Below are positions 23,606 through 47,193 of a stretch of 64,000 bases of DNA, in pieces. Within the stretch, counting starts at the first letter, position 1; each line of letters starts with the position of its first letter. The translations under genes were made by a program, and so were the position numbers. The notes beneath the pieces were generated by a model that was not told where the DNA came from, made no database searches, and saw only the letters and a list, made by a program, of their open reading frames with translations. This DNA is from Streptantibioticus silvisoli (GTDB lineage: Bacteria > Actinomycetota > Actinomycetes > Streptomycetales > Streptomycetaceae): NCBI RefSeq assembly GCF_027947535.2, contig NZ_JAAGKO020000001.1:310001-374000 (forward strand), given 5' to 3'.

Positions 23606-24529
23606 TCAGCCCGCCGGGTGGACGACGTTGCCGGGCCGGCCTCCGCGCGCGAACTGGGTGATCTGGTCCACGGCGACGGACCAGGCGCGGCGTTCGTGGT
23701 CCCCGGCGCCGCCGGCGATGTGCGGGGTGATGAGCACACCGGGGACCGACCACAGGGGGTGTCCCGGCGGGAGTGGCTCGGGGTCGGTGACGTCCAGAGC
23801 GGCCCGCAGACGGCCCCGGCGCAGCCGGTCGACCAGGGCGTCGGTGTCGACGACCGCCCCCCTGGCGGCGTTCACCACGATCGCGCCGGGCGGCAGCAGA
23901 TCGAGGAACCGCGCGTCGGCCATGCCCCGGGTGCGCTTGTCGAGGGGGACCGCCAGCACCACGGCGTCGTGCGCGGGCAGCAGCCCGGGCAGTTCGCCGG
24001 TGCCGTGCACCCCCGGCCGGGCCGTCCGGCCGACCAGGGTGGCGATCGCCCCGCAGGCCGCCAGGCGCACCCGCAGTTCGCGGCCGATGGCGCCGGCGCC
24101 GACGACCAGCACCCGCTTACCCGACAGCGTCTCGCCGGCGGGCACACGGCCCCAGACGCCGGACGCCTGCGCGGCGGCGGCCGCTGGAAACTCGCGCAGC
24201 ACGGCGAGCAGCGCCGCGAGCGCCCACTCCGCGGTGGAGGCCGCCTGCGCGCCGCGGGCGTTCGACAGCAGGATGTGCCCGGGCAGCCGGCCGCTCCACA
24301 ACTCGACGCCCACGTAAAGCAGTTGGACGAGCCGCAGGTCCGGCAGCCCCGCCATCAGGTCGAGGTGGTGATCGACCGGTCCCCGGCCGGGGACGAGGAC
24401 CCCCGCGGTCGCGGCCGGCGGCGGCAGCGGCTCGCCGAGCGCGTACCGGACGGGGGTGAGCCCGTCGGCCGCGCGGACCATCGCCTCCCCCAGCTCGTCG
24501 GGCACCAGCACCCCGAGGGGCTCGGCCAT
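23606..24529 (-). CDS. D-2-hydroxyacid dehydrogenase, NAD(P)-dependent
   Basis: A 307-aa enzyme starting at ATG 24529 (gggagaga upstream). It shows the family's split catalytic domain, then the Rossmann motif GKRVLVVGAGAIGREL (GxGxxG) and the catalytic trio: Arg in VVNAARGAVVDTDALV, Glu in DVTDPEPLPPGHPLW, His in ITPHIAGG. It reversibly reduces a 2-keto acid to a D-2-hydroxy acid. It is the last gene of the - strand run, 61 bp after the methyltransferase, so it may act on a hydroxy- or keto-acid precursor or intermediate. The precise substrate is unknown. Confidence 0.88.
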   Translation of the reverse strand: MAEPLGVLVPDELGEAMVRAADGLTPVRYALGEPLPPPAATAGVLVPGRGPVDHHLDLMAGLPDLRLVQLLYVGVELWSGRLPGHILLSNARGAQAASTAEWALAALLAVLREFPAAAAAQASGVWGRVPAGETLSGKRVLVVGAGAIGRELRVRLAACGAIATLVGRTARPGVHGTGELPGLLPAHDAVVLAVPLDKRTRGMADARFLDLLPPGAIVVNAARGAVVDTDALVDRLRRGRLRAALDVTDPEPLPPGHPLWSVPGVLITPHIAGGAGDHERRAWSVAVDQITQFARGGRPGNVVHPAG

Positions 24530-24590
24530 GCGTCTCTCCCTTCCTGTGCGGTTCCCCCGCCGGCGGGTGCCGGCTGCCGCCGGTCCCGGG

Positions 24591-25229
24591 TCACGCCTGG
24601 CGGGCCGCCTCACGACGGCGGAAGAGGCCGAACCAGTGCCACTGGTCGGGCCGCACCTGGGTGGGCAGGTTGCGGAACCGGCGGAACTCCTCGACCTCGA
24701 AGTGCCGCATGAACGGGTCGAGCACGTCGTCGGAGGTCAGCCGGATCGGGCCGCTGCCGGGCGTCATGCGGTCGGAGAAGCCCACCACCACCATCAGCCC
24801 GCCCGGCTTGAGGATGCGGGCCGACTCGGCGACATAGGCGTCCCGGGCCTCGGGCCGGACGTTGTGGTAGATGAAGGAGTCGTTGACCACGTCGGCGTGG
24901 CCGTCGGGCAGGGTGGTCTCCAGGATGTCGGCCTGGACGAGGTCGAGTTCGACGCCGAACAGCTCGATGAGCCGGCGGGCCGCCTCCAGCGCGGCCGGTG
25001 AGCTGTCGACACCGGTGACGTCCATACCGTGCTTGGCCAGGAACGCGGCCTGGACGCCGGCGCCGCAGCCGAGGTCCACCACCTTCTGGCCGGGCTGGAG
25101 GGTCCCGTCGATGACCAGCTGCGACAGCATCGGGCTGACCGCGCCGGTGAACCAGGAGATCTCCGCCAAGGGCACGTCCGTGTAGAGCTTCGCGAAGTTC
25201 TTCGTCCAGCGCTCGGTGAATGCTTCCAC
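24591..25229 (-). CDS. Class I SAM-dependent methyltransferase
   Basis: A 212-aa enzyme starting at GTG 25229 with aggag upstream. Motif I VVDLGCGAGVQAAFLAKHG (SAM-binding Gly loop), the acidic end of beta-2 VTGVDSSPAAL, and motif post-I/II VQADILETTLPDGHADVV with NDSFIYHNVRPE are clear. It is of the general small-molecule (Methyltransf_25) type. O-, N- or C-specificity cannot be read. It is the only methyltransferase in the cluster, so it could supply the methylation step otherwise missing from the hydroxymalonyl-ACP set, or tailor the product. Confidence 0.88.
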   Translation of the reverse strand: MEAFTERWTKNFAKLYTDVPLAEISWFTGAVSPMLSQLVIDGTLQPGQKVVDLGCGAGVQAAFLAKHGMDVTGVDSSPAALEAARRLIELFGVELDLVQADILETTLPDGHADVVNDSFIYHNVRPEARDAYVAESARILKPGGLMVVVGFSDRMTPGSGPIRLTSDDVLDPFMRHFEVEEFRRFRNLPTQVRPDQWHWFGLFRRREAARQA

Positions 25230-25297
25230 GTCAAGGACTCCTCGTCGTCGGGGTGGGGCGGGGGACGGAGCGGAACGCGGGGGCGCGCCGCCGTGGT

Positions 25298-28200
25298 TCA
25301 GTCCGGGTCCTGCCGGGTCTCCAGCCATCGCTGGACGGCGGCGGCCATCCGGGACAGCACGGCCGACTCGAAGACGACCTTCGCCGGGACGGCCGCGCCG
25401 AGGGAGGACTCGAGCATCGCGATCAGGCGTACCCCCATGAGGGAGTCGCCGCCGAGGTCGAAGAAGTGGTCCGCCGGGTCCACGTCGGCCACGCCGAGTA
25501 CGTCCCGCCAGATGCCGGCCAGCAGTTCCCGGGTTCCGGGCGGCGGTGTGCCGCAGGAATCGGACGGCAGCGGCGCCGGCCCGGTCGCGGGGCGGCCGGA
25601 CGGCTCGTGACCGCTGCCGCCACCGACGCCTTGGGCGTCGTCGCCGGCCGTGCGGGGCCGCGCGCCCAGCAGGCCGGAGCCGGCCCGGAACGGGCGGTCG
25701 TCGCAGGCGTTCGGGGGCAGCGGCACGCCCGGTGCGGCCGGGGTGCCGCGCAGCGCGGCCCAGTCGATGTCGGCGCCGCGCTCCCACAGCCGGCCCAGCG
25801 CCCGGGCCAGGAAGACATCGTCGCGGGCGACCTCGTAGCGTCTGCGCACGGTCGCCAGGGCCACCGTGCCGGGCTTGACGATCCCCGACTGGTGGGCGAT
25901 CGAGCGCAGTTGGCCCGGTCCGGCCTCCAGCAGGGCGGCGCAGCGGTCGGACAGCCGCACGACGCCGGCGCCGAAGTGGACCGTCGAGGACAGCTGACGC
26001 GCCCAGAACTGCGGCCGGGTGATCTCGGAGCCCACCCAGTCGGCGGTCACACCGGTCACCATCGGGATCTTCGGCGGGCGCAGGGTCAGCGACGCCAGCA
26101 GTTCGCGCAGTTCTTCGGCGGCCTCGTGGAGCATGGGCGTGTGGAACGCGTGCGAGACCGGCATGGCGCGGGTCTGCACGCCGCGGCGGGCCAACCGGGC
26201 CGCGACGGCGGCCAGGGCCGGGCGTTCGCCGCCCAGGACGCAGCTGTTCGGGGTGTTGACGGTGGACAGCCATACGCCGGGACCGGTCAGTTCGGCCGTG
26301 TCGTCGGCGGGCAGCGAGACGGCGAGCATGCCGCCCTCGGGCTGGGCGGCGACCAGTTGGGCCCGGCGGACCAGGACGCGGTAGGCGTCGCGGGGTTCGA
26401 AGACGCCGGCGACCGTGGCCGCGACGAGTTCGCCGAGGCTGTGTCCCATGACGGCGGCGGGCACCACGCCGACGCCGGCGAGGGCCGCGGTGAGGGCGGT
26501 CTGCACGCAGAAGGTCACCACGTGGGCGTTGACCGGGTCGGACAGCGCCGCGCCGCCCGGGGTGCCGCGGACCATGGCCCGCAGGTCGACCGACGCGCCG
26601 GTCCCACGCCCGCCCTTGGCCGCCGGCCCGGGGGACAGCGCCCGGTGGAAGTCGCGGCCGGCGACCTCACCGGCCTCGTCGAGCGCCCGGGTCAGCAGGT
26701 CGCGGAAGCCGGGAAGATAGTCCGTCAGGCCTTCGGTCATACCGGCGTAGTGGTCGCCGATGCCCGGGTAGACGAAGCCCGTCGGGCAGCCGTCCGCCGC
26801 GGCCGGCTCCGTGTTCCGGGGGCCGTCGGCCAGTTCGTCCGACCACTCCTGCGGTTGTACGGCGGCCACCGCCCAGCGGTGCGGCAGGTGCTCCCTGCGG
26901 TGCTGGAGCGTGGCGGCCACCGCCGCCAGCGGGATGTGCGCGGTGGGGCCGGCGGGGGCCAGCAGGCGTTCGGCGGTCGCGCGCAGCGCTTCGGCGGTGT
27001 GCGCCGAGATCGTCAGCACCTCGGCCCGGCCGCTCCCGGCGGGCAGCTCGCGGGCCGGCGGCTCCTCCATCACGAGGTGCACGTTGGTGCCGCCCAGGCC
27101 GAACGAGCTGACCCCGGCGCGGCGCGGTCCGCCCCCGGCGGCGTGCCAGTCCTCGGCGGCGGTCGCGAGGCGGGGTCCGGGGCCGTTCGTCGCGTAACGG
27201 GCCGGGCTGCCGCCGTTCAGGCTCGGCGGGATGCGGCCCTCGCGCAGCACGGCGATCGTCTTGAGCAGGCCGGCCATGCCGGACGCCTCGCGCAGGTGGC
27301 CGAGCTGGGACTTGGCGGAGCCCACCACGACCCCGTCCTTGAAGACCCGGCCCAGGGCGGTCCACTCCGTCTCGTCACCGAGCGCGGTGCCGGAGCCGTG
27401 GGCCTCCACGTAGCCGATGTCGCGCGCGGTGACCTCGGCGAAGTCCAGGGCCGTCTCGATCACGGCGACCTGCGCCGCGGCGCTCACCGAGGCGAACCCG
27501 TCCTTGGTCCCGTCGTTGTTGACCGCGGAGCCGCGGATGACGGCGAGCAGCGGATCGCCGTCGGCCAGCGCGTCGTCGAGCCGCCGCAGCACCACGCACC
27601 CCACCCCGTCGCCCGGTACCGATCCGTCCGCCTCGGCGGCGAAGGGGCGGCAGAAACCGGTGGGCGAGCCGATGCCGCCGGGGCCGAAGACGTACCCGTA
27701 CTCCAGGGGCAGCCGGACGGTGGAGGCGCCGGCGAGGGCGACGTCGCATTCGTAGTTGGCCAGTGCCAGGCACGCCTGGTGGACCGCCAGGAGTCCGGTG
27801 GAGCACGCGGACTGCACCACGACGCTCGCCCCGGTCAGCCCCAGCCGGTAGGAGACCTTGGTGGCGAAGTAGTCCTTCTCGTTGCCGATTTCGAGGGTCA
27901 GGTCCTCCACGTCCGGGTCCGGGAGGGTCGCACGGACCATGTCCTCGTGGCGGTTGCGGCCCACCCCGCCGAAGACGGCGATCTGGCCGGCCCGCCGGGG
28001 CAGCACGCCGGCGTTCTCCAGCGCCTCGCGGGCGACGTGCAGGAACAGCCGGTGCTGCGGGTCGGTGATCACCGCCTCGCGGGGCGAGATGCGGTAGCGG
28101 CCGGGGTCGAAGTCGAAGACGTCGTCGATCAGCCCCGAGGCGGCCACGAACCTGGGGTTGCCGAGCCGGGCCTGGGGCACCAGCCCGGCCAGGTCGGCGC

Positions 28201-28312
28201 GTGGCGCGCGGTGGATGCTGTCGCCGTCGGCCAGCAGCCCGGCCCAGTAGGCCGCCGGGTCGGCGGCGCCGGGGAAGCGGCACGCCTGGCCGACGACGGC
28301 TATGCCGGTCAC
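25298..28312 (-). CDS. Type I PKS module, KS-AT-ACP
   Basis: A 1004-aa protein starting at GTG 28312, overlapping the A-PCP gene by GTGA. Residues 1 to about 420 are a ketosynthase with Cys170 (SACSTG), His305 in EAHGSGT (Ser where Thr is usual) and His339 in KSQLGHL. Residues about 510-810 are an acyltransferase with Ser625 (GHSLGE) and HAFH at 721-724; the usual FPGQGSQ entry reads VYPGIGDHY. Residues about 925-995 are an ACP with Ser957 (DLGGDSL). No KR, DH, ER or TE is present. HAFH usually means malonyl, but this is the only AT in the cluster, so it may instead take hydroxymalonyl from the neighbouring ACP system. It should extend the aminoacyl chain from the A-PCP protein to a beta-keto acyl-ACP. 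Confidence 0.92.
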   Translation of the reverse strand: MTGIAVVGQACRFPGAADPAAYWAGLLADGDSIHRAPRADLAGLVPQARLGNPRFVAASGLIDDVFDFDPGRYRISPREAVITDPQHRLFLHVAREALENAGVLPRRAGQIAVFGGVGRNRHEDMVRATLPDPDVEDLTLEIGNEKDYFATKVSYRLGLTGASVVVQSACSTGLLAVHQACLALANYECDVALAGASTVRLPLEYGYVFGPGGIGSPTGFCRPFAAEADGSVPGDGVGCVVLRRLDDALADGDPLLAVIRGSAVNNDGTKDGFASVSAAAQVAVIETALDFAEVTARDIGYVEAHGSGTALGDETEWTALGRVFKDGVVVGSAKSQLGHLREASGMAGLLKTIAVLREGRIPPSLNGGSPARYATNGPGPRLATAAEDWHAAGGGPRRAGVSSFGLGGTNVHLVMEEPPARELPAGSGRAEVLTISAHTAEALRATAERLLAPAGPTAHIPLAAVAATLQHRREHLPHRWAVAAVQPQEWSDELADGPRNTEPAAADGCPTGFVYPGIGDHYAGMTEGLTDYLPGFRDLLTRALDEAGEVAGRDFHRALSPGPAAKGGRGTGASVDLRAMVRGTPGGAALSDPVNAHVVTFCVQTALTAALAGVGVVPAAVMGHSLGELVAATVAGVFEPRDAYRVLVRRAQLVAAQPEGGMLAVSLPADDTAELTGPGVWLSTVNTPNSCVLGGERPALAAVAARLARRGVQTRAMPVSHAFHTPMLHEAAEELRELLASLTLRPPKIPMVTGVTADWVGSEITRPQFWARQLSSTVHFGAGVVRLSDRCAALLEAGPGQLRSIAHQSGIVKPGTVALATVRRRYEVARDDVFLARALGRLWERGADIDWAALRGTPAAPGVPLPPNACDDRPFRAGSGLLGARPRTAGDDAQGVGGGSGHEPSGRPATGPAPLPSDSCGTPPPGTRELLAGIWRDVLGVADVDPADHFFDLGGDSLMGVRLIAMLESSLGAAVPAKVVFESAVLSRMAAAVQRWLETRQDPD

Positions 28313-30720
28313 GCCGTCCCCCCGGTGCCGCCGCGGGTACGCGACCGGGTGGCGGCCAGGGCGGCCCGGCGGGCCTGTTCGCGGCCACGGGCCTCCTCCC
28401 GCGCCGTCGGCGTGCCGGGGTGCCGGGTGCCGCCGGTGTCCGGGGCGAACAGCCCGCACTGGGCGCGTACCGTCGGCCGGTCGAAGAGGTCGGCGACGGG
28501 CACGGTCGTGGCGAACTCCTGCTCCAGCGTCGAGCGCAGCACCAGCACGCGCAGCGAGTCGCCGCCGAGGTCGGTGAAGCCGTCGTCGAGGCCGACCCGG
28601 GCGACGCCCAGCACCCGGGACCACACCCGCGCCAGCCGCTGTTCCAGTTCGGTGCGGGCGGGCGCGTACGGGACCTGGAGGGCCGGGCGGTCGCCGAAGT
28701 CGGGCGACAGCGCGGAGCGGTCGACCTTCCCGCTCAGCAGCATGGGCATCCGGTCGAGGAAGACGAAGTAGGAGGGCACCATGTGCTCCGGCACCCGCTC
28801 GGCCAGGTGGGCGCGCAGGCTCTCCACGGAGGGCGCGGTGTCGCCCGGCCGGACGAATCCGAAGAGCCGGGCGCCCTGCTCGGCGTCGGCGTACCCGACC
28901 ACCACCGCCTCGCGGACCTGCGGGTGTTCGCGCAGCACCGCCTCGATCGCGGTCGGCTCCACCCGCAGGCCGCGGATCTTGACCTGGAGGTCGGCGCGGC
29001 CGATGTACTCCACCTCGCCGCCCGGCAGGAAGCGCGCCAGGTCGCCGGTGCGCAGCAGCAGGGGGACGCGGTCGTCGAAGGGGTTGGGCACGAAGCGTTC
29101 CGCGGTCAGGTCGGGGCGTCCCACGTAGCCGGCGGCCAACCCGGGGCCGCCGGTGTGGATCTCGCCGACGACGCCCGGCGGCACCCGGCGGCCCACCGGG
29201 TCGCACAGGTAGACCCGCATGTCCAGCGCCCTGCCGACGACGCTACCGGTGCAGGGCTCCGCGGTGGGGCCCGAGCGGTGCAGTACGTAGTCCGCCTCGG
29301 TGAGCGTGTAGGTGTTGTGCACCGCGTGGCCCCAGCCGATCAGCCGGTCCTCCAGGTCGCGGGCGAGCTTCTCGCCGCCGACGAAGACGTGGCGCAGGCG
29401 GGTCAGCCCGGGAAAGGACGGGTGCCCCGACAGCAGCCGGAGCATGGACGGCACGAAGCTCACGACCGTCAGTTCCTCGTCGCGCATGAGGCGCACCAGG
29501 TACTGGTCGTCGCGTTCGCCGCCCTCGCGGGCGATGACCGCGGTGGCGCCGACCGCCAGCGGCCACAGGAACTCGCGGAACGATATGGGGGATTTCAGCA
29601 GGACCCGGTCGCCGGGGCCGAGGTGGTACATCCGCTGTTCGAGCCGGATGCGCGAGGTGTGCATGCGGTGCGGGCGCAGCACCCCCTTGGGCTGGCCGGT
29701 GGTCCCGGAGGTGAAGATCACGTAGGCCGGGTCCTCGGGTCCGGCCCCGGCCCGCGGCGCGGGGGTGCGGTCGGTCCACGCCAGGACGTCGTGGATCGGC
29801 ACGCCCTGCGGGGCGTGCTCGCCCGCGGCCGGTACGCTCCCGCCCGGGGAGACCAGCACCACCCGCACGCCGGCGGCCTCGACCAGTGCGGCGAGGTGCG
29901 CGTCGGGGTGGGCGGGGTCGAGGTGGACGATGGCGCCGCCGGCCTTGAGGATGCCGAGCAGCCCGACGAACAGCTCCAGGGTGCGCGTCCCCGTCGCCCC
30001 CACCAGGGAGCCGGTGCGCACCCCGTGTTCGGCCAGCACGCGTGCGACCGCGTCGCTGGCCTCGTCCAGGGTGCGGTAGTCCAGCACCGCGTCCCCGTGC
30101 TGGAGCGCGACGGCGTCCGGGGTCGCCCGGGCCTGCCGGGAGAACATCTCATGGAGGGTGAGCGGCGGCGCGGGCTCGGGGGTTCCGCCGTGCCGCTCCA
30201 GGAAGGCGGCCTCCGCCTCGGTGAGCAGTTCGATGCCGGCGGCCGGGACCGCCGGGTCGGCGGCCGCCGCGTGCAGCGCCAGGTCGAGGTGGTCGCGCAG
30301 TTGGCGCAGCGCCTCGGCGTCGAAGGCCGCCGGGTTGGCCTCCAGGACGAGGTCGCCGTCGACGCGCACCGCGAGGTCGTCGCGCAGCGGGTCGAGCGCT
30401 TCCCCGACGGCCACCACGGGCTGCGCGGATTGCTCGCCGCCGGCCGCGGCGGCTGACGGCACGTCACCGGGTGCGGGCAGCAGGTCCGCGAGGCGGGCGC
30501 CGGGGGACAGCGGCGCGGGGGTGACCGGCCGGTCCCGCAGCCGCCAGCGCCACGGCTGCCGGAACCGCTCGGCCAGCAGGGCGAGGGCCGCCAGCAGGGC
30601 CTGCTCGACGGGCATCCCCAGCGCCGCCGCGGCGCGTTGCGCGGTCTCGGCGGGCCCCCGCAGCACCACCGGGGCCGTTCCGGGGGCCGGAGCGGCGGTT
30701 CGTTCTGGCAACACGAGCAC
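28309..30720 (-). CDS. NRPS loading protein, A-PCP with C-domain stump
   Basis: An 803-aa protein from GTG 30720. Residues about 20-180 look like the leftover C-terminal part of a condensation domain; no HHxxxDG is present. Residues about 185-675 are an adenylation domain: A3 FTSGTTGQPKG (336-346), A5 region NTYTLTEADY (469-478), A7 LRTGDLARF, A8 GRADLQVKIRG, A10 SGKVDRSAL with Lys664. In A4 the usual SFD-x(4)-E segment reads SFREFLWPL (380-388): about four residues are missing and the amino-group-binding Asp is absent, so the substrate may lack a normal alpha-amino group. The PCP has Ser722 (DLGGDSL). It most likely loads the starter for the KS-AT-ACP protein. The tail is rich in Arg. Confidence 0.88.
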   Translation of the reverse strand: MLVLPERTAAPAPGTAPVVLRGPAETAQRAAAALGMPVEQALLAALALLAERFRQPWRWRLRDRPVTPAPLSPGARLADLLPAPGDVPSAAAAGGEQSAQPVVAVGEALDPLRDDLAVRVDGDLVLEANPAAFDAEALRQLRDHLDLALHAAAADPAVPAAGIELLTEAEAAFLERHGGTPEPAPPLTLHEMFSRQARATPDAVALQHGDAVLDYRTLDEASDAVARVLAEHGVRTGSLVGATGTRTLELFVGLLGILKAGGAIVHLDPAHPDAHLAALVEAAGVRVVLVSPGGSVPAAGEHAPQGVPIHDVLAWTDRTPAPRAGAGPEDPAYVIFTSGTTGQPKGVLRPHRMHTSRIRLEQRMYHLGPGDRVLLKSPISFREFLWPLAVGATAVIAREGGERDDQYLVRLMRDEELTVVSFVPSMLRLLSGHPSFPGLTRLRHVFVGGEKLARDLEDRLIGWGHAVHNTYTLTEADYVLHRSGPTAEPCTGSVVGRALDMRVYLCDPVGRRVPPGVVGEIHTGGPGLAAGYVGRPDLTAERFVPNPFDDRVPLLLRTGDLARFLPGGEVEYIGRADLQVKIRGLRVEPTAIEAVLREHPQVREAVVVGYADAEQGARLFGFVRPGDTAPSVESLRAHLAERVPEHMVPSYFVFLDRMPMLLSGKVDRSALSPDFGDRPALQVPYAPARTELEQRLARVWSRVLGVARVGLDDGFTDLGGDSLRVLVLRSTLEQEFATTVPVADLFDRPTVRAQCGLFAPDTGGTRHPGTPTAREEARGREQARRAALAATRSRTRGGTGGTA

Positions 30721-30751
30721 GGTAGGTTCCTCCCTTCGTACGGTGCGGTGC

Positions 30752-32197
30752 CTAGCGGGCCAGTGCGGCGCGGGCCGCGACGCGTCCGGTGACGGCGCCG
30801 TAGGTGACGCCGATGATCTTCGAGGAGGAGTCGCCCACGAAGTACAGGCCGGGGACGCTCGATTCCAGGTCGTCCGACAAGGTGATCGACGGATAGATGC
30901 GTTCCACCACGGGGGCGGCGACCTGCGCGTGCCCGGCGATCATGCCGGGGCTGAAGTCGTTGAGCCGCTCGACCATGCCGGCCACGTCGGCCACCCGTTC
31001 CGGGCCGAGGACGGCGGCCAGGTCGCCGCGCACGGCGCCGGGCAGGCTCGATCCGATGTCGCGGCCGGGCCGCGCGGACCAGCCGAGGAACTCCGCGACG
31101 CTCTGCACCAGCGCCCCGGCGCCGGACGCCTTGTTCACCCGGCGCGCGAAGTCCAGGGCGTACTCGGTCCCGCCGGTGCCGTCCGGCGCGTTCACCGTGG
31201 TGACCACGCCGAAGTTGGTGCGCCGGGTGGGCGCGCTCAGGCAGTGCTGGCCGTCGAGGACGACGGTGTCGAGGAACTGGTACTGCATGATGCGCCCGCC
31301 GACGCACACGCAGAAGGTGCGCACGGACTCGCCCGCCGCGTTGAAGTAGCTGAGCTTGGGGTTGTGGCAGGACGCGGTGAGCGGGGCGGCCTCCGGCGCG
31401 GCCGTCTCCAGGCGCACCCCGACCTCGACGCGGCGCGGCGACTCGTGCTCGACGTGCAGTTCGGCCAGCACCTCGCGGACCCACCCCAGGCCCAGCTTGC
31501 CGACCGCCACGATGACCGAGCGGGCGGTGTGGGTGCCGCCCTGCGCGCCCTCGGTGTGCACGGTGAACCGCTCGCCGGACCGGGTGACGCGGGTGACGCG
31601 GTGCCGCAGCAGGATGCGCCCGGAGTTGCTGGTGATCTCGTCGCACATCCGGCCGATGACCACCAGCGCCTCGTCGACCGTGATCGACTGCGAGGGAGCG
31701 GTGTCCGCCAGGACGAAGCCGTCCGCCTGCCGCTGCTCGGCCGCGCTCTCGTGCGGCTCCTGCACCCGGCTCAACCCCAGCCGGTAGAAGGTGTCGTAGA
31801 CGTCGCGGGTGCCGTGCTCCGCCCGCTCGAAGCTGCCGAGCGCCCGCTCCAGGCCGCTGTACTTGCGCAGGGCGCCGTTCTCGTCCTTCTCCACCTTCGA
31901 CCTGGTCAGGCCCTTGATGTAGCCGAGGTTGGTGTCGAAGTGGAAGGCGGCGCCGCCGATGCCGGTCAGACACGTGCAGCGCGCGCACTGCAGGCGGAAC
32001 TTCTCCGCCTCCCGGATCTGCCGGCCGCGGGCCACCGCCTTCACCCGGGGGCACAGGCTGTCGAACATGCCGTCGCCGGCCTCCACCAGCAGCACGTCGC
32101 GCCCGGCGCGGGCGATCTCGTGGGCGGCGAACAGGCCGGACGGTCCGCCGCCGATCACGATGGTCTCCCACTCGCGCGACAAGGTCTCCTCGGTCAT
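30752..32197 (-). CDS. FAD-dependent oxidoreductase, COG2509-like
   Basis: A 481-aa flavoprotein from ATG 32197. The N-terminal Rossmann motif is IVIGGGPSGLFAAHEIARAG, and the C-terminal FAD-closing motif reads LYFVGDSSSKIIGVTYGAVT. A Cys cluster CARCTCL follows at about residue 70, and further Cys (TFCVCVGG) lie near residue 280. The overall shape resembles the uncharacterised FAD dehydrogenases of COG2509. It should oxidise or reduce a pathway intermediate; substrate unknown. It lies 31 bp upstream of the A-PCP gene in the same operon. Confidence 0.75.
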   Translation of the reverse strand: MTEETLSREWETIVIGGGPSGLFAAHEIARAGRDVLLVEAGDGMFDSLCPRVKAVARGRQIREAEKFRLQCARCTCLTGIGGAAFHFDTNLGYIKGLTRSKVEKDENGALRKYSGLERALGSFERAEHGTRDVYDTFYRLGLSRVQEPHESAAEQRQADGFVLADTAPSQSITVDEALVVIGRMCDEITSNSGRILLRHRVTRVTRSGERFTVHTEGAQGGTHTARSVIVAVGKLGLGWVREVLAELHVEHESPRRVEVGVRLETAAPEAAPLTASCHNPKLSYFNAAGESVRTFCVCVGGRIMQYQFLDTVVLDGQHCLSAPTRRTNFGVVTTVNAPDGTGGTEYALDFARRVNKASGAGALVQSVAEFLGWSARPGRDIGSSLPGAVRGDLAAVLGPERVADVAGMVERLNDFSPGMIAGHAQVAAPVVERIYPSITLSDDLESSVPGLYFVGDSSSKIIGVTYGAVTGRVAARAALAR

Positions 32198-32315
32198 CGA
32201 CTACTCCGATCAGGCCGGTGGGTGTGCTCGGAAGGCGGTTCATGGGCGGGTTCGGGAAAGACCGTCCGCAATGGCCCGGGCCGGGCACCTGATTCCGCAC
32301 ACCCGTCCGGCGCGG

Positions 32316-35146: not shown

Positions 35147-35148
35147 GG

Positions 35149-36201: not shown

Positions 36202-36236
36202 CAGCTCTCCTTCGGATGTGGCACGTCGTACGGGGA

Positions 36237-39585: not shown

Positions 39586-39586
39586 C

Positions 39587-40441
39587 TCAGTGCTCTCCCT
39601 CGGCTGTGTAGACGTAGAAACCCTGGCCGGTCTTGCAACCCAGCCGGCCGGCGTCGATCATGCGCAGCAGCACGGGCGCCGGGGTGAAGCGCGCCGGGCC
39701 GTAGTAGCGTGCGAGCACTTCCAGCGTCCGCACGATGGTGTCGATGCCGATGAGGTCGGCGGTGCGCAGCGGTCCCGACTTGTGGCCGAGGCAGCCGCGG
39801 AAGAGCCGGTCGGCCTCGGCGGGCGTCGCGACGCCGGACGCACACAGGTCGGCGGCCTCGTTGATGAACATCATCAGGCAGCGGTTGATGACGAACCCGG
39901 CCATGTCGGCGACCACGACGCTGGCCTTGCCCATCCGCTCCAGCAGCGCCTGGAGCGTCTTGACCGCGTCGTCGTCGGCGTACTCGGGCCGGATCACCTC
40001 GACGGTGTCGATGAGGGAGACCGGGTTCATGAAGTGGGCGCCGACCATCCTGCCGGGGTGCCCGGTGGCCAGCGCGAGGCGGGTGACCGGCACGGCCGAG
40101 GTGTTCACCGCCACGACGCACTCGGGCGAGATGACGGCGTCCAGCGCCCGGTGGACCTCCTCCTTGAGCGTGATGTCCTCGGTGACGTTCTCGATCACCA
40201 GGTCGCAGCCGGCCAGGTCGGCGAGCGTGCCGGTGAAGGTGACCGGCGCCTGCTGCCCGGGGCCCTTGCGCAGCCGGGCGAGACGTTCGCCGGTGGCCAT
40301 CGAGCGCCGCGCGGTCGCCAGCGCCTCCGGCGAGGCGTCCTGCAGGACGACCTCGATCCCGCTGCGGGCGACCGCCTGGGCGACGCTGCTGCCGATGACT
40401 CCGGCGCCGACCACCCCGACGCGGTTGACGTACCCGTTCAC
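39587..40441 (-). CDS. 3-hydroxyacyl-CoA dehydrogenase-like enzyme of the extender-unit set
   Basis: A 284-aa enzyme from GTG 40441 (agagggg upstream), one base before the ACP gene. It has Rossmann motif GVVGAGVIGSSVAQAVA and the family His in GAHFMNPVSLIDTVEV, then the C-terminal helical domain with GHKSGPLRTADLIGIDT. In methoxymalonyl-ACP pathways the homologue oxidises the glyceryl-ACP primary alcohol to the aldehyde. With FkbH, acyl-CoA dehydrogenase and ACP it completes a hydroxymalonyl-ACP pathway; no dedicated O-methyltransferase gene is in the set. Confidence 0.92.
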   Translation of the reverse strand: MNGYVNRVGVVGAGVIGSSVAQAVARSGIEVVLQDASPEALATARRSMATGERLARLRKGPGQQAPVTFTGTLADLAGCDLVIENVTEDITLKEEVHRALDAVISPECVVAVNTSAVPVTRLALATGHPGRMVGAHFMNPVSLIDTVEVIRPEYADDDAVKTLQALLERMGKASVVVADMAGFVINRCLMMFINEAADLCASGVATPAEADRLFRGCLGHKSGPLRTADLIGIDTIVRTLEVLARYYGPARFTPAPVLLRMIDAGRLGCKTGQGFYVYTAEGEH

Positions 40442-40507
40442 TTCGGCCCCTCTTCCTTGTCGGCGTGGGTTGCGCGCCGGCGCCCCGGGCGGCGGCGCGG
40501 CGACGGA

Positions 40508-41476
40508 TCAGTCATCGAGGGCTCCGATCCAGTCCGGCTCCGCACGCAGGAAGTACTCGGTCAGCGGCCGGTAGAACAGGTGGTCCGCCGGCCTGCCCTG
40601 CTTCTCGATCCGGCGGTGCAGCCACAGGCAGCACACCGGCACCAGGCGGGCCAGCGCGGCGGCGGACTGCCCGGTGGCGCCGGCGTAGCGGCGCAGCGCG
40701 GCCCGCATCGCGGTGCGGAACGGTCCGTCGAGCCCGAACATCTGCTCGCCCAGCCAGCCGAAACCGCGCTGCTGGTAGTCGGGAAACACCACCAGCGCGC
40801 TGGTCAGCACGGTGTTGAGCAGGTCGATCGTGGTGATGCCGCTGTCGTGGTAGTCCTCCCAGTCGATCAGCGCCAACCGCCCGTCCGAGGCGTCCCAGCG
40901 GATGTTCCACGGCCCCAGGTCGCCGTGGCTCGGTCCGATCCAGGTGTGGCTCAGCGCGTCGAGGGCCGCCGGGCCGGCCTGTTCCAGCAGGTCGCCGAGG
41001 TAGGCCCGGGCGATGGGCGTCGCGTCGCCGGGGCCGGCCGCCGGGTCGCCGGTGTGCAGCGGGAGCATCAGGTCCACGGCCTGCTCCAGCAGGACCCGGG
41101 CCCGGTCCGTGCCGCCCTCGCCGAAGGCGTGCGGGAAGTCGCGGTCGGGGACCCAGTCCATGACGAAGCCGCGGTCGAACTCGCACGCCACCCCGGGCCG
41201 GGCCACCCCGGCGGGAGCGGGCGCGCGCAGGATGCCGCGCTCCTTGACGACCATGGTGTCCAGCGGGTCCAGCGGGATCTTGGCCACGTAGACCGGCCGG
41301 TCCCGCGCACCGCCCGACACGAACAGCCGGCGGCGCTGCTTGCGGGCGCTGTTGGGCACCCAGGAGCGGAAGCGGACCTCGTCCTCGGGGATGCCGTCGA
41401 GCACGCACAGCCGGCCGAGGGTGTCCTGGACCCGGTCCATCAGCTGCGGGGGGACCGGTGGGGCCTGGGAGGTCAT
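40508..41476 (-). CDS. APH-like phosphotransferase
   Basis: A 322-aa kinase from ATG 41476, overlapping the glycosyltransferase stop by four bases. Brenner motif SHGDLGPWNI (Asp186, Asn191) and the metal-binding Asp205 in LALIDWEDY place it in the aminoglycoside/choline kinase superfamily. Such enzymes phosphorylate hydroxyls. In this cluster it may phosphorylate a sugar intermediate or protect the host by modifying the product. Confidence 0.9.
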   Translation of the reverse strand: MTSQAPPVPPQLMDRVQDTLGRLCVLDGIPEDEVRFRSWVPNSARKQRRRLFVSGGARDRPVYVAKIPLDPLDTMVVKERGILRAPAPAGVARPGVACEFDRGFVMDWVPDRDFPHAFGEGGTDRARVLLEQAVDLMLPLHTGDPAAGPGDATPIARAYLGDLLEQAGPAALDALSHTWIGPSHGDLGPWNIRWDASDGRLALIDWEDYHDSGITTIDLLNTVLTSALVVFPDYQQRGFGWLGEQMFGLDGPFRTAMRAALRRYAGATGQSAAALARLVPVCCLWLHRRIEKQGRPADHLFYRPLTEYFLRAEPDWIGALDD

Positions 41477-42747
41477 CGCCGCCCTCCCGTCGCGATGGCG
41501 CCCTGCGCTCCCGCCGGCGTGCCGAACAGCGACTCGGTGATCTGCGAGATGGGGTTGGCCGCCAGCCGGGCGCGTAACTCGGCCACGCCGTCCGCCCGTT
41601 GCCGCTCGTCGAACCCGACCAGCTGCTCGATGCGGCTGTTGAGCATGTGGCGGAACCGCTTGTACAGCTCCTCCTCCTCCAAGATCCGCTCCGCCAGCGC
41701 CACGATGGCCGCGGTGCCGGTGAAGTCGTCCTGGGGGACCGGGTGTTCGGGTGCGACGTCGGTCAGGCGGACCCCGCAGGAGTGGAACAGCGTGCCGTCC
41801 AGGCTCCGCAGGTTGAACACGTGCCCGTAGTGCTGCTCGGGCAGGGCCATGGGCAGCCGGCCGATGCTGATGGCCTCGTGGATGCTGGTCAGCCCGGGGG
41901 TGAGCATGTAGTGGGGCACGGTGCCGACCTGCTGGAGCAGTTCGTTGTGCGGCAGCATGCGGAACGAGGCGTGCCGGCCGCGGACTTCCACCTGGTGCTC
42001 GCGGCCCTCGCTGAACGCGCCGCCGCAGACCGTGAGCCGGTCGAAGCGCTCCCAGTCCTTGAGCAGGTCGGGGATCCAGCGGTCGAAGAGCTTGAGGTAG
42101 GCGTTGTTGACGTCGTAGTCGAGCAGGAAGTTCTTGAACCCGCCGATGTTGATCAGCAGGTCGCAGTCGGCCTCGGCCTGCGGGGAGATGCCGTCCAGCA
42201 CCTGGGTGTCGATGATGGAGCCGGTCAGGTGCATGGGGCCCGCGCCCAGTTCCCGGAACCGGGCCATCCGCTCCGGCACCCCGCGCAGGTTCTGCACGAT
42301 GCTGTGGTCGCACAGCAGGTGGGCGGCGAGGATCTGCTCGTGCGGCCGCAGCGGCGCCAGGCGCTCCAGGACCGCCTCGGCCCGGCCGCGCGGCATGTCC
42401 CGGCACAGTTCGGCCAGCCGGTCGAGCTCCACCTCGTGCTGCCAGAAGCTGAAGAGGCTGTCCACCATGACGACGGGCCGGCCGGCCGCGTAGGCCCGGC
42501 AGACCAGTTCGGCGTCCATCACCGACACCACGCAGTCGCTCTGCTCGATCAACTCGTCGAGCAGCCCGGCCCGTTCCGCCCCGGTGTCGTGGAGCCGGTC
42601 GAACATGGCCGCGTTGCGCCGGGCGTAGACGACGGCCACGGTGTCCCCGCAGAAGACGCGTTCGTGCTGCGGGATCAGCCGGGAGATCGCCGCCAGCTTG
42701 GCCACCGGTCCGAAGCCGCAGCTCTGCGCGCCCATGAGGATCCTCAT
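41473..42747 (-). CDS. GT-B glycosyltransferase-like protein
   Basis: A 424-aa protein from ATG 42747, coupled by ATGA to the transketolase gene upstream and by four bases to the kinase downstream. Features: MRILMGAQSCGFGPVAKLAA (Gly-rich start of the acceptor half), VVMVDSLFSFWQHE, the donor-half strand DLLINIGGFKNFLLDY, LTVCGGAF, and the nucleotide-sugar-binding-like stretch YMLTPGLTSIHEAISIGRLP. The pattern recalls cytosylglucuronate-synthase-type enzymes of nucleoside antibiotics (VDSL near residue 95, then TPGLT), but the similarity is only what can be seen by eye. It should transfer a sugar to a cluster intermediate. Confidence 0.65.
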   Translation of the reverse strand: MRILMGAQSCGFGPVAKLAAISRLIPQHERVFCGDTVAVVYARRNAAMFDRLHDTGAERAGLLDELIEQSDCVVSVMDAELVCRAYAAGRPVVMVDSLFSFWQHEVELDRLAELCRDMPRGRAEAVLERLAPLRPHEQILAAHLLCDHSIVQNLRGVPERMARFRELGAGPMHLTGSIIDTQVLDGISPQAEADCDLLINIGGFKNFLLDYDVNNAYLKLFDRWIPDLLKDWERFDRLTVCGGAFSEGREHQVEVRGRHASFRMLPHNELLQQVGTVPHYMLTPGLTSIHEAISIGRLPMALPEQHYGHVFNLRSLDGTLFHSCGVRLTDVAPEHPVPQDDFTGTAAIVALAERILEEEELYKRFRHMLNSRIEQLVGFDERQRADGVAELRARLAANPISQITESLFGTPAGAQGAIATGGRR

Positions 42748-43706
42748 CGCGCTTCACTCCTTCGTCCCAGGGACGCCAGCAGGCAGGCGGCGACCGCCTC
42801 CGCCGTGATCCCGAAGTGGTCGAGCAGTTCGGCGCGGTCGCCCAGCGGCGGATAGGAGTCGTCGACGGCGTGCGGCAGGAAGGCGCCCTGCCACCGCCCC
42901 ACCAGCGCCCGTGCGGTGTGCTGGGTGATCCCCGTGCTGTCGAGGTGCTCCTCCACCACCGCGACCGCCCGCAGCCCGGTGGCGAGTTCGCGGACCCGTT
43001 CGGCCGGGAAGGGCTTGACGACGGGCAGCGCCAGCACGCCCAGCCGGACACCGTGGCCGGCGAGCAGCCCGGCGGCGTCCAGGGCCACCGGCACCCCGAC
43101 GCCGGTGGCCACCGCCAGCGCCTCGCCGGGTTCGGCCAGCAGCAGGCCGTCCGCCCGGAACTCCCGGTCGGCCGGATGCACCACCCGGTCCTCCCGCGCG
43201 CCCAGCCGCACGTACGCCGGGCCGGGCCAGGCGAGTGCCTCGCGCACCGCCCAGGCGGCGTCGACCACGTCGGTGGGGCAGAACACCCGGGTGTTGGGCA
43301 GGCCGCTGAAGAAGCCCAGGTCCTCCGGTACGTGGTGGGTGGGGCCGAGCGTGCCGTAGCTGACGCCGCCGCCCACCCCCAGGAAGGTGACGTTCAGACC
43401 GGGGTTGCACACGTCGTTGCGGATCTGCTCCGCGGCCCGCCGCACCAGGAAGGGAGCCATGGTGCCGACCACGACGGGCCGCCCGGAGCGGGCCAGCCCG
43501 GACGCGACGCCCACCAGGTTCGCCTCCGCGATCCCGACGTCGATGTAGCGCCGCGGATGGCGGTCGCGCACCTGCGTGGCCAGTCCGTACCCGTCGGCCC
43601 CCAGCACCACCAGCGCCGGGTCGGCGTCCGCCGCCTCGCCGAGCACCTGGGCGACGGCGGGCCGCATCGGGGCGTACGCGGGACGCCGCGCGGCCGGGGC
43701 GGTCAC
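42744..43706 (-). CDS. Transketolase, C-terminal subunit
   Basis: A 320-aa protein from GTG 43706, overlapping the N-terminal subunit gene by GTGA. It has the pyrimidine-binding domain (GADGYGLATQVRDRHPRRYI, then DVGIAEANLVGVASGLA with the conserved Glu that activates thiamine diphosphate) and the C-terminal domain (LLAGHGVRLGVLALPVVKPF). Split transketolases of this kind act as a heterodimer with the next gene and move a two-carbon ketol unit between sugars or onto aldehydes. Confidence 0.92.
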   Translation of the reverse strand: MTAPAARRPAYAPMRPAVAQVLGEAADADPALVVLGADGYGLATQVRDRHPRRYIDVGIAEANLVGVASGLARSGRPVVVGTMAPFLVRRAAEQIRNDVCNPGLNVTFLGVGGGVSYGTLGPTHHVPEDLGFFSGLPNTRVFCPTDVVDAAWAVREALAWPGPAYVRLGAREDRVVHPADREFRADGLLLAEPGEALAVATGVGVPVALDAAGLLAGHGVRLGVLALPVVKPFPAERVRELATGLRAVAVVEEHLDSTGITQHTARALVGRWQGAFLPHAVDDSYPPLGDRAELLDHFGITAEAVAACLLASLGRRSEAR

Positions 43707-44518
43707 CGGGCCACCGCCGGGCGCGGGTCCAGCGCGGCGACGGCCTCACGGTGCTGCCGCTCGGTCAGTTGCAGGTGGTGGAAGCGCGGTTCGCCCTCCA
43801 TGTAGGGCACCCCCCGCCCCTTGACGGTGTGGGCGACGAGCACGGTCGGCCGGTCCGTCGGGGCGGACGGCCGCGTCAGGGTGTCGACGAGCAGCCCGCA
43901 GTCGTGCCCGTCGACCTCCGCCACCCGCCAGCCGAAGGACTCCCACTTCGCCGCCAGCGGCTCCAGGGCGAGCACCTGCTCGGTGGGGCCCTCCTGCTGG
44001 AGGGTGTTGCGGTCGACGACGGCGACGAGATTGCCCAGCCGGCGGTGGGCGGCGAACATCGCGGCCTCCCACACCGAGCCCTCGTTCAGCTCACCGTCGC
44101 CGAGGACCACCGCGGTCCGCCGGTCGCTGCCGTCCAGCCGGGCGGCCTCCGCCAGTCCGGCGCCGATGGACAGGCCGTGCCCGAGCGCCCCGGTCGCCGC
44201 CTCCACCCCGGGGGTGCCGTCCAGCGGGTGCCCGGCGCGCGGGTCGTCGAGTCCCGGCATGCCGAGTTCGGCGAGCACGCAGTACAGCGCCCAGACCGAA
44301 TGCCCCTTGCTCAGGACGAGGCGGTGGCGGTCGGGGTCGGCGGACCGGGCCGGGGTGAACCCGAAGGCACGGTGCACGGCGACCAGGATGTCGACGACGC
44401 TGAGCGATGCCCCCAGGTGCACCGGGCGGGAGACGGCCAGGTCCAGCAGGCGTCTGCGGGCACGAGCGGCAAGGGCCGCCGGCGCGTCCGAAAGCTCATC
44501 AGATGCGTTGGCAAACAA
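43703..44518 (-). CDS. Transketolase, N-terminal subunit
   Basis: A 271-aa protein. TTG 44518 is the likely start, preceded by aaagg at seven bases; the frame further upstream lacks coding character. The ThDP/Mg site is visible as LGDGELNEGSVWEAAMFA with the later NTLQQEG, and LGASLSVVDILVAVHRAFGF plus GALGHGLSIGAGLAEAARL are typical. With the C-terminal subunit it forms a ThDP enzyme that may build a ketose-like or high-carbon chain for the cluster product. It is the first gene of the long - strand operon. Confidence 0.9.
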   Translation of the reverse strand: MFANASDELSDAPAALAARARRRLLDLAVSRPVHLGASLSVVDILVAVHRAFGFTPARSADPDRHRLVLSKGHSVWALYCVLAELGMPGLDDPRAGHPLDGTPGVEAATGALGHGLSIGAGLAEAARLDGSDRRTAVVLGDGELNEGSVWEAAMFAAHRRLGNLVAVVDRNTLQQEGPTEQVLALEPLAAKWESFGWRVAEVDGHDCGLLVDTLTRPSAPTDRPTVLVAHTVKGRGVPYMEGEPRFHHLQLTERQHREAVAALDPRPAVAR

Positions 44519-45368
44519 GGCTGACCTTTCGTGGACGGATGCCTGACGGCACCGCAGGCAAGGCCGAAGGAAGGTCCGTATGCGCGCTCTCACCGTGACC
44601 GGACTTCCCGGGTCCGACGCGTGGCTCGACGACCCCACGCCGAGATCCGTCCGATTCCGATGGGCATCGGCGAAGGAATGGGGCTGCAAGAAACAAGGAA
44701 GAGGGAAATGCGGCTGATATGTGGGGGCTGAACCGTCGGCGAACTCTTTAGCGGTATTCGCGGGAGCGCTTTTCGCGAGTGCGGGCGTACCGGTGGGGAG
44801 AATTGCGGCCGTACGTTTCGCAAAGCTATCCGGACATCTGGCGGCGCGCAAGACCCGTGCATGATCCGGCCGCCGGACCCCGCCCGGCCGGAGCGGACCG
44901 CCCGATCCGCGGCAGGCGGTGTCCGGTTGCGGATGCGACCGGTCCGCAGGGACGTGGCGGCGGGCGGGGCCTCGTCCGGGCGTGTCCGACGCAGGCGGAC
45001 AGGGCGCGGGCGCACGGTATATGGCCAGCTCAGCGCGGTCCGCCGACCGCGGGTGGCCGCCGCCGGTGCGGCGGCCGACGCGGGGCGGTCCCGGGCGTTC
45101 CGGCGGCTGCGGCCTGTCCGGCGGGCGGCGCATACCTACCGCGGTGGCCCTCGCACGCACCGCCTGCGTACCGGCCGAACGCATGTTTCCAGCCGCACCA
45201 AGGGGAATTTCGGTCACTCGGCAGCAGGCTGGAATTTCCCGTCGATCTGCCGGGTACGCAATCCGGGGACCCCATGTACAGTCGTGCGGTGAAAGTCTGA
45301 TCCGCCGGTGCGGAAACTCGCTCCGCCTAGTTCGATGTCGTCAGGGAACCCACGGCAAGGGAGCGGAG
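44519..45368. other. Divergent intergenic region of about 850 bp
   Basis: This region separates the transketolase-led - strand operon from the + strand DUF4254-like gene and should hold the main promoters of the cluster. Seen: an imperfect hairpin near 44541-44559, an AT-richer patch at about 44690-44770, two direct copies of GGAATTTC (45204-45211 and 45231-45238), and TACAGT at 45277-45282 as a possible -10 box. No cluster-specific regulator gene is present. No credible ORF was found. Confidence 0.5.
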
Positions 45369-45911
45369 ATGAACTTGGGTCGAACAGCGGATGAGGTGCC
45401 CTCCGCCGCAGCCATAATCGAAACCTTCGCTCTCCCCGGCCCGCGAAACACCGAGAAGCCGAATGAATCGGTGTTCATCGGCACGTCCCGCCGGTTGTGC
45501 GCCCACCACGGCCGCCAATGGGACGCCGAGGACGAGGCACGGGAACTCGCCGCGGAACCCGAGAAGCTGGCCGCCGTGAAACGCGAGATCGACGCGATGA
45601 ACATGCGGCGCAGCGGCCTGATCGACCTGCTCGACACCTGGGTGCACGACCACATCACCCAGGAGCACGCGGCCCCGCTGCACACCGAGACGCTCGGCAG
45701 CATCGTCGACCGGCTGTGCATCGCCTGGATCCGCTCGCAGAAGCTGAGCGCCAAGGCCCGCGGCGACGACGATCCGGTACTCGCCGGCAAGGGCGCGCTG
45801 GCGGCGCGTCAGCTGACGGAACTCGGCCACGCCTACGACGTCCTGGTCGCCGAGGTCACCTCCGGCCGGCGCCGGGTCCCCGACTGGCGCGCGCTGAAGT
45901 CCTACGGGTAG
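45369..45911 (+). CDS. DUF4254-like protein
   Basis: A 180-aa cytosolic protein from ATG 45369 (gagcggag upstream). It is helical and charged, with WDAEDEARELAAEPEKLAAV, KREIDAMNMRRSGLIDLLDT and NQ-like ends, then SIVDRLCIAWIRSQKLSAKA. The pattern of paired short helices with an RSGLIDLLD-type core recalls DUF4254 proteins, which often sit beside GT9 (heptosyltransferase-like) genes, as here. Its role is unknown; a partner of the following glycosyltransferase is inferred. Confidence 0.65.
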   Translation: MNLGRTADEVPSAAAIIETFALPGPRNTEKPNESVFIGTSRRLCAHHGRQWDAEDEARELAAEPEKLAAVKREIDAMNMRRSGLIDLLDTWVHDHITQEHAAPLHTETLGSIVDRLCIAWIRSQKLSAKARGDDDPVLAGKGALAARQLTELGHAYDVLVAEVTSGRRRVPDWRALKSYG

Positions 45912-45975
45912 GAAAGGACCGCCCGGGCCCGGCACCCACGGGACCGGCGGGCGAGCGCACGAAGGAGCGACGGAC

Positions 45976-47193
45976 GTGTGGAGCATTGACGGTGTGAAGT
46001 TCCAGCCCGGCGGCCGGCTGGTCGTCCCGCGGCGGGCGGCCCCGCTGGGGGTGCGTCTGCCCTACCGCCGCGCCAAGGGGGAGGCGCCCGACGGCCCGAC
46101 CCGGCTGCTGGACGCCGTGGCCGCGAACGGCTGGTCCGTGCGGTTCGTCGCCGACCCGGGCGGCGGCTTCAGCGCGGGGACGTCCGCGGTCCCGTTCGGC
46201 GACCTGCTGCTGGAACTGACCGTCGCCCGCGCCCTTCTCGACGCGTCGGCCGTCACCGGGGCCGCGCCCGCCGAGGTGGTCTACCGCGGCCCGCGCCACC
46301 GCCTGATGGAACGGTGCGACCTTCCCTTCGCCGCCTGCGAGGACGGCCCGCAGCACACCGTGTCCACCCCGGCGGCGGCCGTGTCCGCCACGGTCCCGCC
46401 CACCGGGCCCCCGTCCTGGGCCGGCGCCGGCCAGGACCCGTCGCCCGGGGCCCCGCGGACCCACGTCCCGCCGTGGCTCGACCCGGTCGACGACGAGGTC
46501 GAGGTCCACTCCGCCCTCCCCATGCGGTACTACCTGGAGGTCGAACAGCGCCTGGGCGTGCGCCTGCCGCTGGACGGCGCCCCCGCCCCGCGCTTCCGGT
46601 CGCGCACCGCGAACACCGACCCGCGGCACGTCGTGCTGGTCTCCACCTCCAGCGCCTACGGCAGCAGGCAGGACTACGGCGTCGACGGCCTGCTCGACGT
46701 CGCCCGCTCCCTGACCGAACTCGCCCCCGGCGCCTGGCGGTTCACCCTGCTCACCAACGATCCGGCCCGGCAGGCCGCCGGAGCGCGGCTGGACTGCCCC
46801 CTCGACGTCGTCGTACGGCCCGACGCGACGGACTGCGTCGACCTGTTCGGCAGCTGCGCGCTCGTCGTGGGCAACGACACCGGGCTGACCCACCTGGCGG
46901 CCCTGACCGCCCGCCCCGACGGCACCGGCCCGCAGGTCGTCGCGCTGCACGGGCGCTTCAGCCACCTCAAGTGGGTGACCGGCTCCACCCGCCACCACTC
47001 GGTGGCCACCCCGCTGTCGCAGATGATGGCCTTCGCCGACGTCGGGCTCTACATCAACTCCTACGGCCTGCCCATCGACGACACCGTATGGGGCACCGGC
47101 GACGTCACGGCGATCGCACCGTCCCTCATCGCGCGGTACGCCTACGGGTGTTTGACGGGGGAGGTGCCGCACGCCGATGAGCCGCAGGCCTGA
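45976..47193 (+). CDS. GT9/heptosyltransferase-like glycosyltransferase
   Basis: A 405-aa protein from GTG 45976 (gaaggagcga). The N-terminal half is less conserved. The C-terminal half has the family motif LVVGNDTGLTHLAALTA preceded by FTLLTNDPARQAAGARL and DLFGSCAL, as in ADP-heptose:LPS heptosyltransferases (donor-binding NDTGxxHLA). Actinomycetes lack LPS, so the acceptor here is presumably a cluster intermediate. It follows the DUF4254-like gene by 64 bp and is probably co-transcribed with it. Confidence 0.72.
   Translation: MWSIDGVKFQPGGRLVVPRRAAPLGVRLPYRRAKGEAPDGPTRLLDAVAANGWSVRFVADPGGGFSAGTSAVPFGDLLLELTVARALLDASAVTGAAPAEVVYRGPRHRLMERCDLPFAACEDGPQHTVSTPAAAVSATVPPTGPPSWAGAGQDPSPGAPRTHVPPWLDPVDDEVEVHSALPMRYYLEVEQRLGVRLPLDGAPAPRFRSRTANTDPRHVVLVSTSSAYGSRQDYGVDGLLDVARSLTELAPGAWRFTLLTNDPARQAAGARLDCPLDVVVRPDATDCVDLFGSCALVVGNDTGLTHLAALTARPDGTGPQVVALHGRFSHLKWVTGSTRHHSVATPLSQMMAFADVGLYINSYGLPIDDTVWGTGDVTAIAPSLIARYAYGCLTGEVPHADEPQA

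Follow-up and report, generated by a model that had tools for sequence, protein, structure and literature searches.

At positions 23606–47193, the 64,000-nucleotide stretch of Streptantibioticus silvisoli DNA analyzed here, hereafter called the window, encodes a biosynthetic gene cluster that in our judgement (probability about 85%) is of the miharamycin/amipurimycin kind, i.e. a high-carbon-sugar nucleoside cluster, in a non-peptidyl variant. Its product would likely be a C2-branched high-carbon-sugar nucleoside derived from a nucleobase and glucuronate. Genes in this region were called by codon-position GC and assigned to families by Pfam and NCBIfam scans, and every enzyme that a previous sequence-only reading had listed was recovered where it had been placed and on the implied strand. 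That reading's description of one hybrid nonribosomal peptide synthetase/polyketide synthase (NRPS/PKS) cluster for a sugar- or nucleoside-like compound agrees with our analysis. Its statement that no described cluster holds this combination of genes does not, since a related cluster of amipurimycin type (genome G159) and another that is probably of miharamycin type (G857) have the same core, and the combination is thus that of a known family.

Six G159 proteins score above the curated NCBIfam cut-offs of the cispentacin/amipurimycin models AmcB, AmcC, AmcE, AmcF, AmcG and AmcH and are encoded beside an ATP-grasp gene and the same 14-gene core as in the window, and because of these six matches we assign this cluster by sequence to the amipurimycin (amc) type. 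Besides its cispentacin genes it contains an aminotransferase and LOG, and no LigAB match was found there. Close homologues of AmcB, C, E, F and G are present in G824 and G870. The G857 cluster carries an ATP-grasp gene, LigA-LigB-Gfo adjoining the transketolase, and a YqcI/YcgG gene right after a PheT-like gene. PMC8976061 places Mhr24 of miharamycin in the YqcI/YcgG family, and for this reason G857 is probably a miharamycin-type cluster. Taken as a likely proxy for the miharamycin cluster (mih/mhr), G857 has in common with the window both transketolase halves (TKN and TKC), the cytosylglucuronate-synthase-like glycosyltransferase, the APH-like kinase, the flavoprotein (FAD), A-PCP, KS-AT-ACP, HBD, ACP, ACAD, FkbH, the methyltransferase, SDR, Gfo, LigA and LigB, with homologues 39–63% identical to those of the window and in a different gene order. 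G857 additionally has the ATP-grasp gene, an aminotransferase, YqcI/YcgG and a PheS/PheT pair, whereas the window instead carries a 2-hydroxyacid dehydrogenase, GT9 and DUF4254.

For a broader comparison we used 15 clusters, namely those of the window, G394 (S. tailanensis), G395 (Catenulispora), G396 (Cellulomonas), G133, G164, G083, G065, G159, G356, G857, G289, G933, G824 and G870; G396 consists of two contigs taken as halves of one cluster and the G870 contig ends in the KS, both being only partly covered. The core recurs, as conserved blocks with small gaps, in all 14 other actinobacterial clusters, each from another genome, which excludes chance as an explanation for the gene set. All 15 clusters have the transferase, the APH-like kinase, the flavoprotein, A-PCP and KS. 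Thirteen have the transketolase halves (both halves in the window; they were not found in G289 and G933), and the four hydroxymalonyl genes (FkbH, ACP, ACAD and HBD) are present in all 13 clusters whose contigs cover them. The methyltransferase is present in the 14 clusters covered at its position, the G870 contig stopping before it, with homologues of 50–76% identity in 13 of the 14 others; it stands after FkbH in 10 relatives and at a different place in G289 and G933. A Gfo/Idh homologue (53–69% identity) is found in 12 of the 14 other clusters. Neither a Gfo/Idh homologue at 53% identity or more nor an SDR homologue at 50% or more was found in G289 or G933, and G356 has only a 41-residue SDR fragment. 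LigA together with LigB occurs in six of the 15 clusters (window, G394, G395, G857, G289 and G933). The sequence-only reading had proposed a synteny check, in which its idea would fail if sugar and dioxygenase genes were absent from otherwise identical clusters. In this check the sugar genes are core in the relatives, while intact LigA/LigB genes were not found in nine of the 15 clusters, among them the partly covered G396 and G870. GT9 and DUF4254 occur together only in the window and Catenulispora (55% identity for GT9). The 2-hydroxyacid dehydrogenase was seen in the window cluster alone, with no homologue in the fetched stretches of the other clusters at the thresholds used. The usual order in relatives is transketolase, transferase, APH, FAD, A-PCP, KS, HBD, ACP, ACAD, FkbH, methyltransferase and SDR, flanked at one end or the other by Gfo and LigAB, and the blocks common to the relatives and the window are TKN-TKC-transferase-APH, FAD-A-PCP-KS, HBD-ACP-ACAD-FkbH and Gfo-LigB-LigA.

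The distribution of the flavoprotein points to the same cluster type. Across four overlapping genome samples, it was detected in 8 of the 394 family genomes (own genome included), in 6 of 392 from the genus of G159, in 3 of 70 from the genus of G133 and, among 394 genomes taken from the class, in 1, the own genome. All matches whose surroundings were fetched (seven from the family sample and four more from the genus of G159) lie inside such clusters, and the flavoprotein is a good marker of the cluster type. Searching named genomes with the 424-residue transferase yielded nine loci, of which three (S. tailanensis, Catenulispora pinistramenti and Cellulomonas phragmiteti) have the same core and six (L004–L009, Streptomyces) have the transferase but not the other cluster genes. 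Among these six, in the four with open reading frames listed (L004, L006, L007 and L008), the transferase, located around 9150–11270 in L004–L009, follows a gene of 252–281 codons that appears alpha/beta hydrolase-like by eye.

The sugar part of the core, encoded on the minus strand, fits a nucleoside pathway. The transferase (41473–42747) was modelled by AlphaFold2 with a predicted local distance difference test score (pLDDT) of 90.8 as a GT-B fold with matches to UDP-sugar transferases. According to a review (PMC11188666), MihI makes guanylglucuronic acid from GMP and UDP-glucuronic acid, and we infer that the window protein is the counterpart of MihI and hence a proposed guanylglucuronate synthase. 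The reaction proposed for it, joining a base to UDP-glucuronic acid, is like that of cytosylglucuronate synthase (TIGR04467), although the window protein is not that equivalog. The transketolase is split into a C-terminal half (42744–43667; PF02779, PF02780) and a thiamine diphosphate half (43703–44590, start between 44422 and 44590; PF00456, GDGELNEG motif). A split-gene transketolase is proposed in PMC12247030, as an unproven step, to add a hydroxyacetyl group to a keto sugar in both the miharamycin and the amipurimycin pathway. The core also includes the APH-like kinase (40508–41476; PF01636, E 2e-6; motifs HGDLGPWN and IDWED) and the Gfo/Idh/MocA oxidoreductase (35149–36201; PF01408). The best PDB matches of the latter are 3q2k and 3q2i, which we take to be WlbA-type enzymes, and glucuronide 3-dehydrogenase 8tdi stands lower in the list. 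By these matches it resembles sugar-acid (uronate) dehydrogenases, and we propose it as a 3′-dehydrogenase of the nucleoside uronic acid. The flavoprotein (30752–32197; assigned by fold and family match) has its best fold match in 3nlc (VP0956), of the COG2509 type, in an AlphaFold2 model of pLDDT 73.3. All 13 homologues compared keep eight of its cysteines unchanged; four of these are arranged as C-x21-C-x2-C-x-C, and a metal or iron–sulfur site is possible. The cysteine-rich stretch (residues 42–89) has a pLDDT under 50.

The assembly-line part shows the same relationship. Atypical A-PCP, KS-AT-ACP and hydroxymalonyl-ACP genes, a feature of membership in this family, are all seen in the window on the minus strand. 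The A-PCP protein (28309–30669, start may be 30720; PF00501, PF13193, PF00550) has the A10 lysine (LSGKVDR), and active-site residues are present for the KS, AT and carrier domains. In the single PKS module KS-AT-ACP (25298–28312; PF00109, PF02801, PF00698, PF00550) the motifs QSAC170STG, EAHGSGT, KSQLGH, GHSLG and GGDSL are intact. The A4 stretch of the A domain reads KSPISFREFLWPL with no Asp235 equivalent in the alignment, so that the domain appears to lack this residue. This stretch is, with small changes, common to 10 of 10 relatives aligned, the conserved pocket of G159 among them. In work by Wang from 2020, the A domain is said to recognise and activate a nucleoside uronic acid. The hydroxymalonyl-ACP set comprises FkbH (37119–38177; TIGR01686, 273 bits at a cut-off of 146.65; predicted to act in glyceryl-ACP formation), an acyl-CoA dehydrogenase-like protein (ACAD, 38174–39328; PF00441, PF02770, PF02771), a stand-alone acyl carrier protein (39325–39558, start may be 39585; PF00550, E 8e-7; LLDSL motif) and a 3-hydroxyacyl-CoA dehydrogenase-like protein (HBD, 39587–40441; PF02737, PF00725).

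Several observations weigh against placing the window in this family. The core is only 39–60% identical to that of G159, and the order in the window is rearranged, with FAD-A-PCP-KS-methyltransferase now behind LigA. The transferase has no Pfam match and reaches TIGR04467 only weakly (E 6e-10, 38.8 bits against a cut-off of 300, over 258 residues). It is also not diagnostic alone, as the L004–L009 copies (52–53% identity) are closer to it than that of G159 (41%), and the base or sugar donor may for this reason differ from miharamycin's. Finally, genes for an ATP-grasp ligase, a class IV aminotransferase, LOG, YqcI and cispentacin were all looked for in the window without success, which means that it lacks the peptidyl half of the family's chemistry. 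Of the five proteins AmcB, C, E, F and G, AmcF alone has a match in the window (27%), which falls on the KS domain.

This missing half is common to a clade. Three groups have full support (ultrafast bootstrap 100) in a tree built on four concatenated core proteins of 13 clusters. One unites the window with S. tailanensis and Catenulispora, another is the amipurimycin side with G159, G857, G356, G289 and G933, and the third comprises G133, G164, G083, G065 and Cellulomonas, which bear a phenylalanyl-tRNA synthetase (PheRS)-like pair. Aminotransferase and ATP-grasp genes were not found in the clusters of the window, S. tailanensis and Catenulispora; a class IV aminotransferase is present in G159, G356, G857, G289, G933, G824 and G870. 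From this absence in a draft genome, the window group would represent a non-peptidyl variant. Were the ligase and the aminotransferase encoded elsewhere in the genome, the product would be a true peptidyl nucleoside as in the miharamycin and amipurimycin clusters. The core, LigA and LigB shared with miharamycin-like G857 would suit this, as would a genome that may be incomplete (98.11% complete), but a search of the window's genome at E<=1e-30, which did not extend to other ligase families, found no relative of the cluster-type ATP-grasp, the S. tailanensis and Catenulispora genomes gave only partial matches of 36–39%, and the aminotransferase was not found in any of the three clusters of the group. 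We therefore regard a peptidyl product as improbable. The window's genome likewise has no PF08892 (YqcI/YcgG) match. A LOG-type nucleotide phosphoribohydrolase is encoded beside several clusters other than the window's (L029:10857–11447, with homologues in G083, G065, G394 and G824). In S. tailanensis, a GH3-family protein and a protein without Pfam match (L041:7069–10575) stand beside an adenylating/condensation-type protein (L002:4703–8074, by eye), so that this close relative of the window would have a tailoring arm of another kind.

The LigA-like small subunit (34018–34323, start may be 34434; PF07746, E 3e-6) and the LigB-like protein (34325–35146; PF02900, E 1e-26), both on the minus strand, invite another interpretation. 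Here the cluster would belong to an unrelated new class, in which an amino or aryl acid is loaded by the A-PCP, extended once and decorated with sugar, with LigAB-Gfo building an aromatic-derived starter by LigABC-like ring cleavage. LigA, LigB and Gfo are indeed adjacent, and LigB aligns to protocatechuate 4,5-dioxygenase. We aligned LigB with this enzyme (1b4u) and with five cluster relatives. H54, H120 and E239 are kept in six of six sequences and H12, which lies ahead of the stretch aligned with 1b4u, in the five rows that reach it; these are the positions of the LigB metal ligands and catalytic acid. The metal ligands and the catalytic acid His127 of class III extradiol LigAB enzymes are thus represented in the window protein, but in place of the catalytic base His195, four of the six sequences, the window's included, have Leu and the other two have Gln. 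His195 of LigB corresponds to the proposed base His179 of MhpB, as given in PMC3962378. Because the catalytic-base histidine is replaced while the metal ligands remain, it is doubtful that the window LigAB cleaves aromatic rings. Compared to LigAB protocatechuate 4,5-dioxygenase and gallate dioxygenase, the window thus shares the LigA and LigB domains and metal-ligand positions but differs by the Leu at His195 and the sugar-nucleoside setting. No typical family for aromatic precursor supply was recognised among the scanned cluster proteins in general Pfam and NCBIfam scans. The sequence-only reading had paired the Gfo/Idh enzyme with extradiol ring cleavage; since Gfo is core in clusters without LigAB and is of sugar type, it is by these comparisons part of the sugar core and not of the dioxygenase, and we reject a LigABC-style ring-cleavage cassette. 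The same A-domain type also occurs in clusters without LigAB, and a cluster with the same core matches the amipurimycin models, which leaves an unrelated new class very improbable. An anisomycin-type origin, considered for its transketolase and glycosyltransferase, was dropped once the amc match appeared.

Within the miharamycin/amipurimycin-type reading, the role of LigAB invites speculation. In the G824 region at 11518–11977 (L057), C-terminal remnants of both LigB and LigA lie with Gfo on one side and a 321-aa-type gene on the other, as if an ancestral LigAB were being lost from this amipurimycin-type cluster. In a scenario that we hold to be rather unlikely, the product of the window clade is a hydroxy-acid member of the family that is non-peptidyl and possibly glycosylated by GT9. 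The base-less LigAB would here act as an iron oxygenase, either on the enediol of the PKS-made alpha-hydroxy-beta-ketoacyl chain or on the branched sugar, and not on an aromatic ring; the family would have had this use of LigAB from its origin and be losing it in the amipurimycin-type clusters.

From homology and synteny, which are what the comparison shows, we propose a route whose reactions and order of remaining steps are all conjectural. The transferase would couple UDP-glucuronic acid with a nucleobase, for which guanine supplied by GMP is the probable candidate. Gfo/Idh would oxidise C3′ of the resulting nucleoside uronic acid, and the split transketolase would add a two-carbon hydroxyacetyl branch onto the ketone. 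Preparation or deoxygenation of the sugar may fall to the APH-like kinase and the flavoprotein. The atypical A domain would then activate the C6′ carboxylate onto its own PCP for one extension by KS-AT-ACP with a hydroxymalonyl unit from FkbH/ACP/ACAD/HBD, after which the SDR and the methyltransferase could adjust the chain, with release occurring without a thioesterase. At the point where an aminotransferase acts in relatives, the 2-hydroxyacid dehydrogenase would leave a hydroxy acid. LigAB might catalyse an oxidation of a non-canonical kind, GT9/DUF4254 may add a sugar, and the product would be exported by the MFS pump.

The remaining genes complete the layout. The minus-strand run extends from the D-2-hydroxyacid dehydrogenase-like gene (23606–24529, start may be 24613; NAD-binding domain PF02826, E 8e-43) to the transketolase and includes the core genes for the S-adenosylmethionine-dependent methyltransferase (24591–25229; PF13649, E 3e-20) and the SDR oxidoreductase (36237–36941, start may be 37007; PF13561, E 2e-57) as well as the predicted MFS exporter (32316–33548; PF07690, E 1e-18). 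Divergent from it on the plus strand are DUF4254 (45369–45911; PF14063, E 6e-28; start set by alignment with L003, 53% identity), which was missing from the earlier list, and the adjoining heptosyltransferase-like GT9 gene (45994–47193, start may be 45976; PF01075, E 1e-4, 21.7 bits at a Pfam cut-off of 22). Gaps between adjacent minus-strand genes as called range from -4 to 177 bases, with MFS-LigA (469 bases) as the exception, in line with the tight coupling noted before; likewise, no thioesterase or regulator family matched among the scanned cluster proteins. A short DDE transposase-like reading frame, possibly a fragment, lies at the cluster edge (47467–47880). Two neighbouring ferritin-like genes occupy 19838–21450, and a 75% identical homologue of one of them lies near the G083 cluster, hinting at a common chromosomal site for both clusters.

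A divergent PheS/PheT pair accompanies six of the 15 clusters: G133 (L024:9985–13566), G164, G083, G065, G857 and Cellulomonas (L042:10663–13593). The cluster PheS proteins are 24–33% identical to three housekeeping PheS and 34–92% among themselves, and the PheT of G133 gave no editing-domain family match at E<=0.001. The pair could be either a self-resistance determinant or a biosynthetic ligase, and may thus be a lead to the target or the chemistry of the family. No such PheRS copy was found in the window's genome, where pheT gave a single match. A class I lysyl-tRNA synthetase gene is found next to two of the PheRS-bearing clusters (L024:6138–7811 and G083 region 790–2457).

With this analysis, a cluster that seemed to be an orphan can be assigned to a small family of antibiotics, in which the branching step, according to PMC12247030, is still unproven. 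The comparison of 15 clusters splits the core of this family from optional modules, i.e. amino-acid attachment, LigAB, the PheRS-like pair and GT9/DUF4254. If the scenario for LigAB were true, it would be a new use for the extradiol dioxygenase fold. The window clade, for its part, suggests that compounds lacking an amino-acid arm are also among the products of the family.

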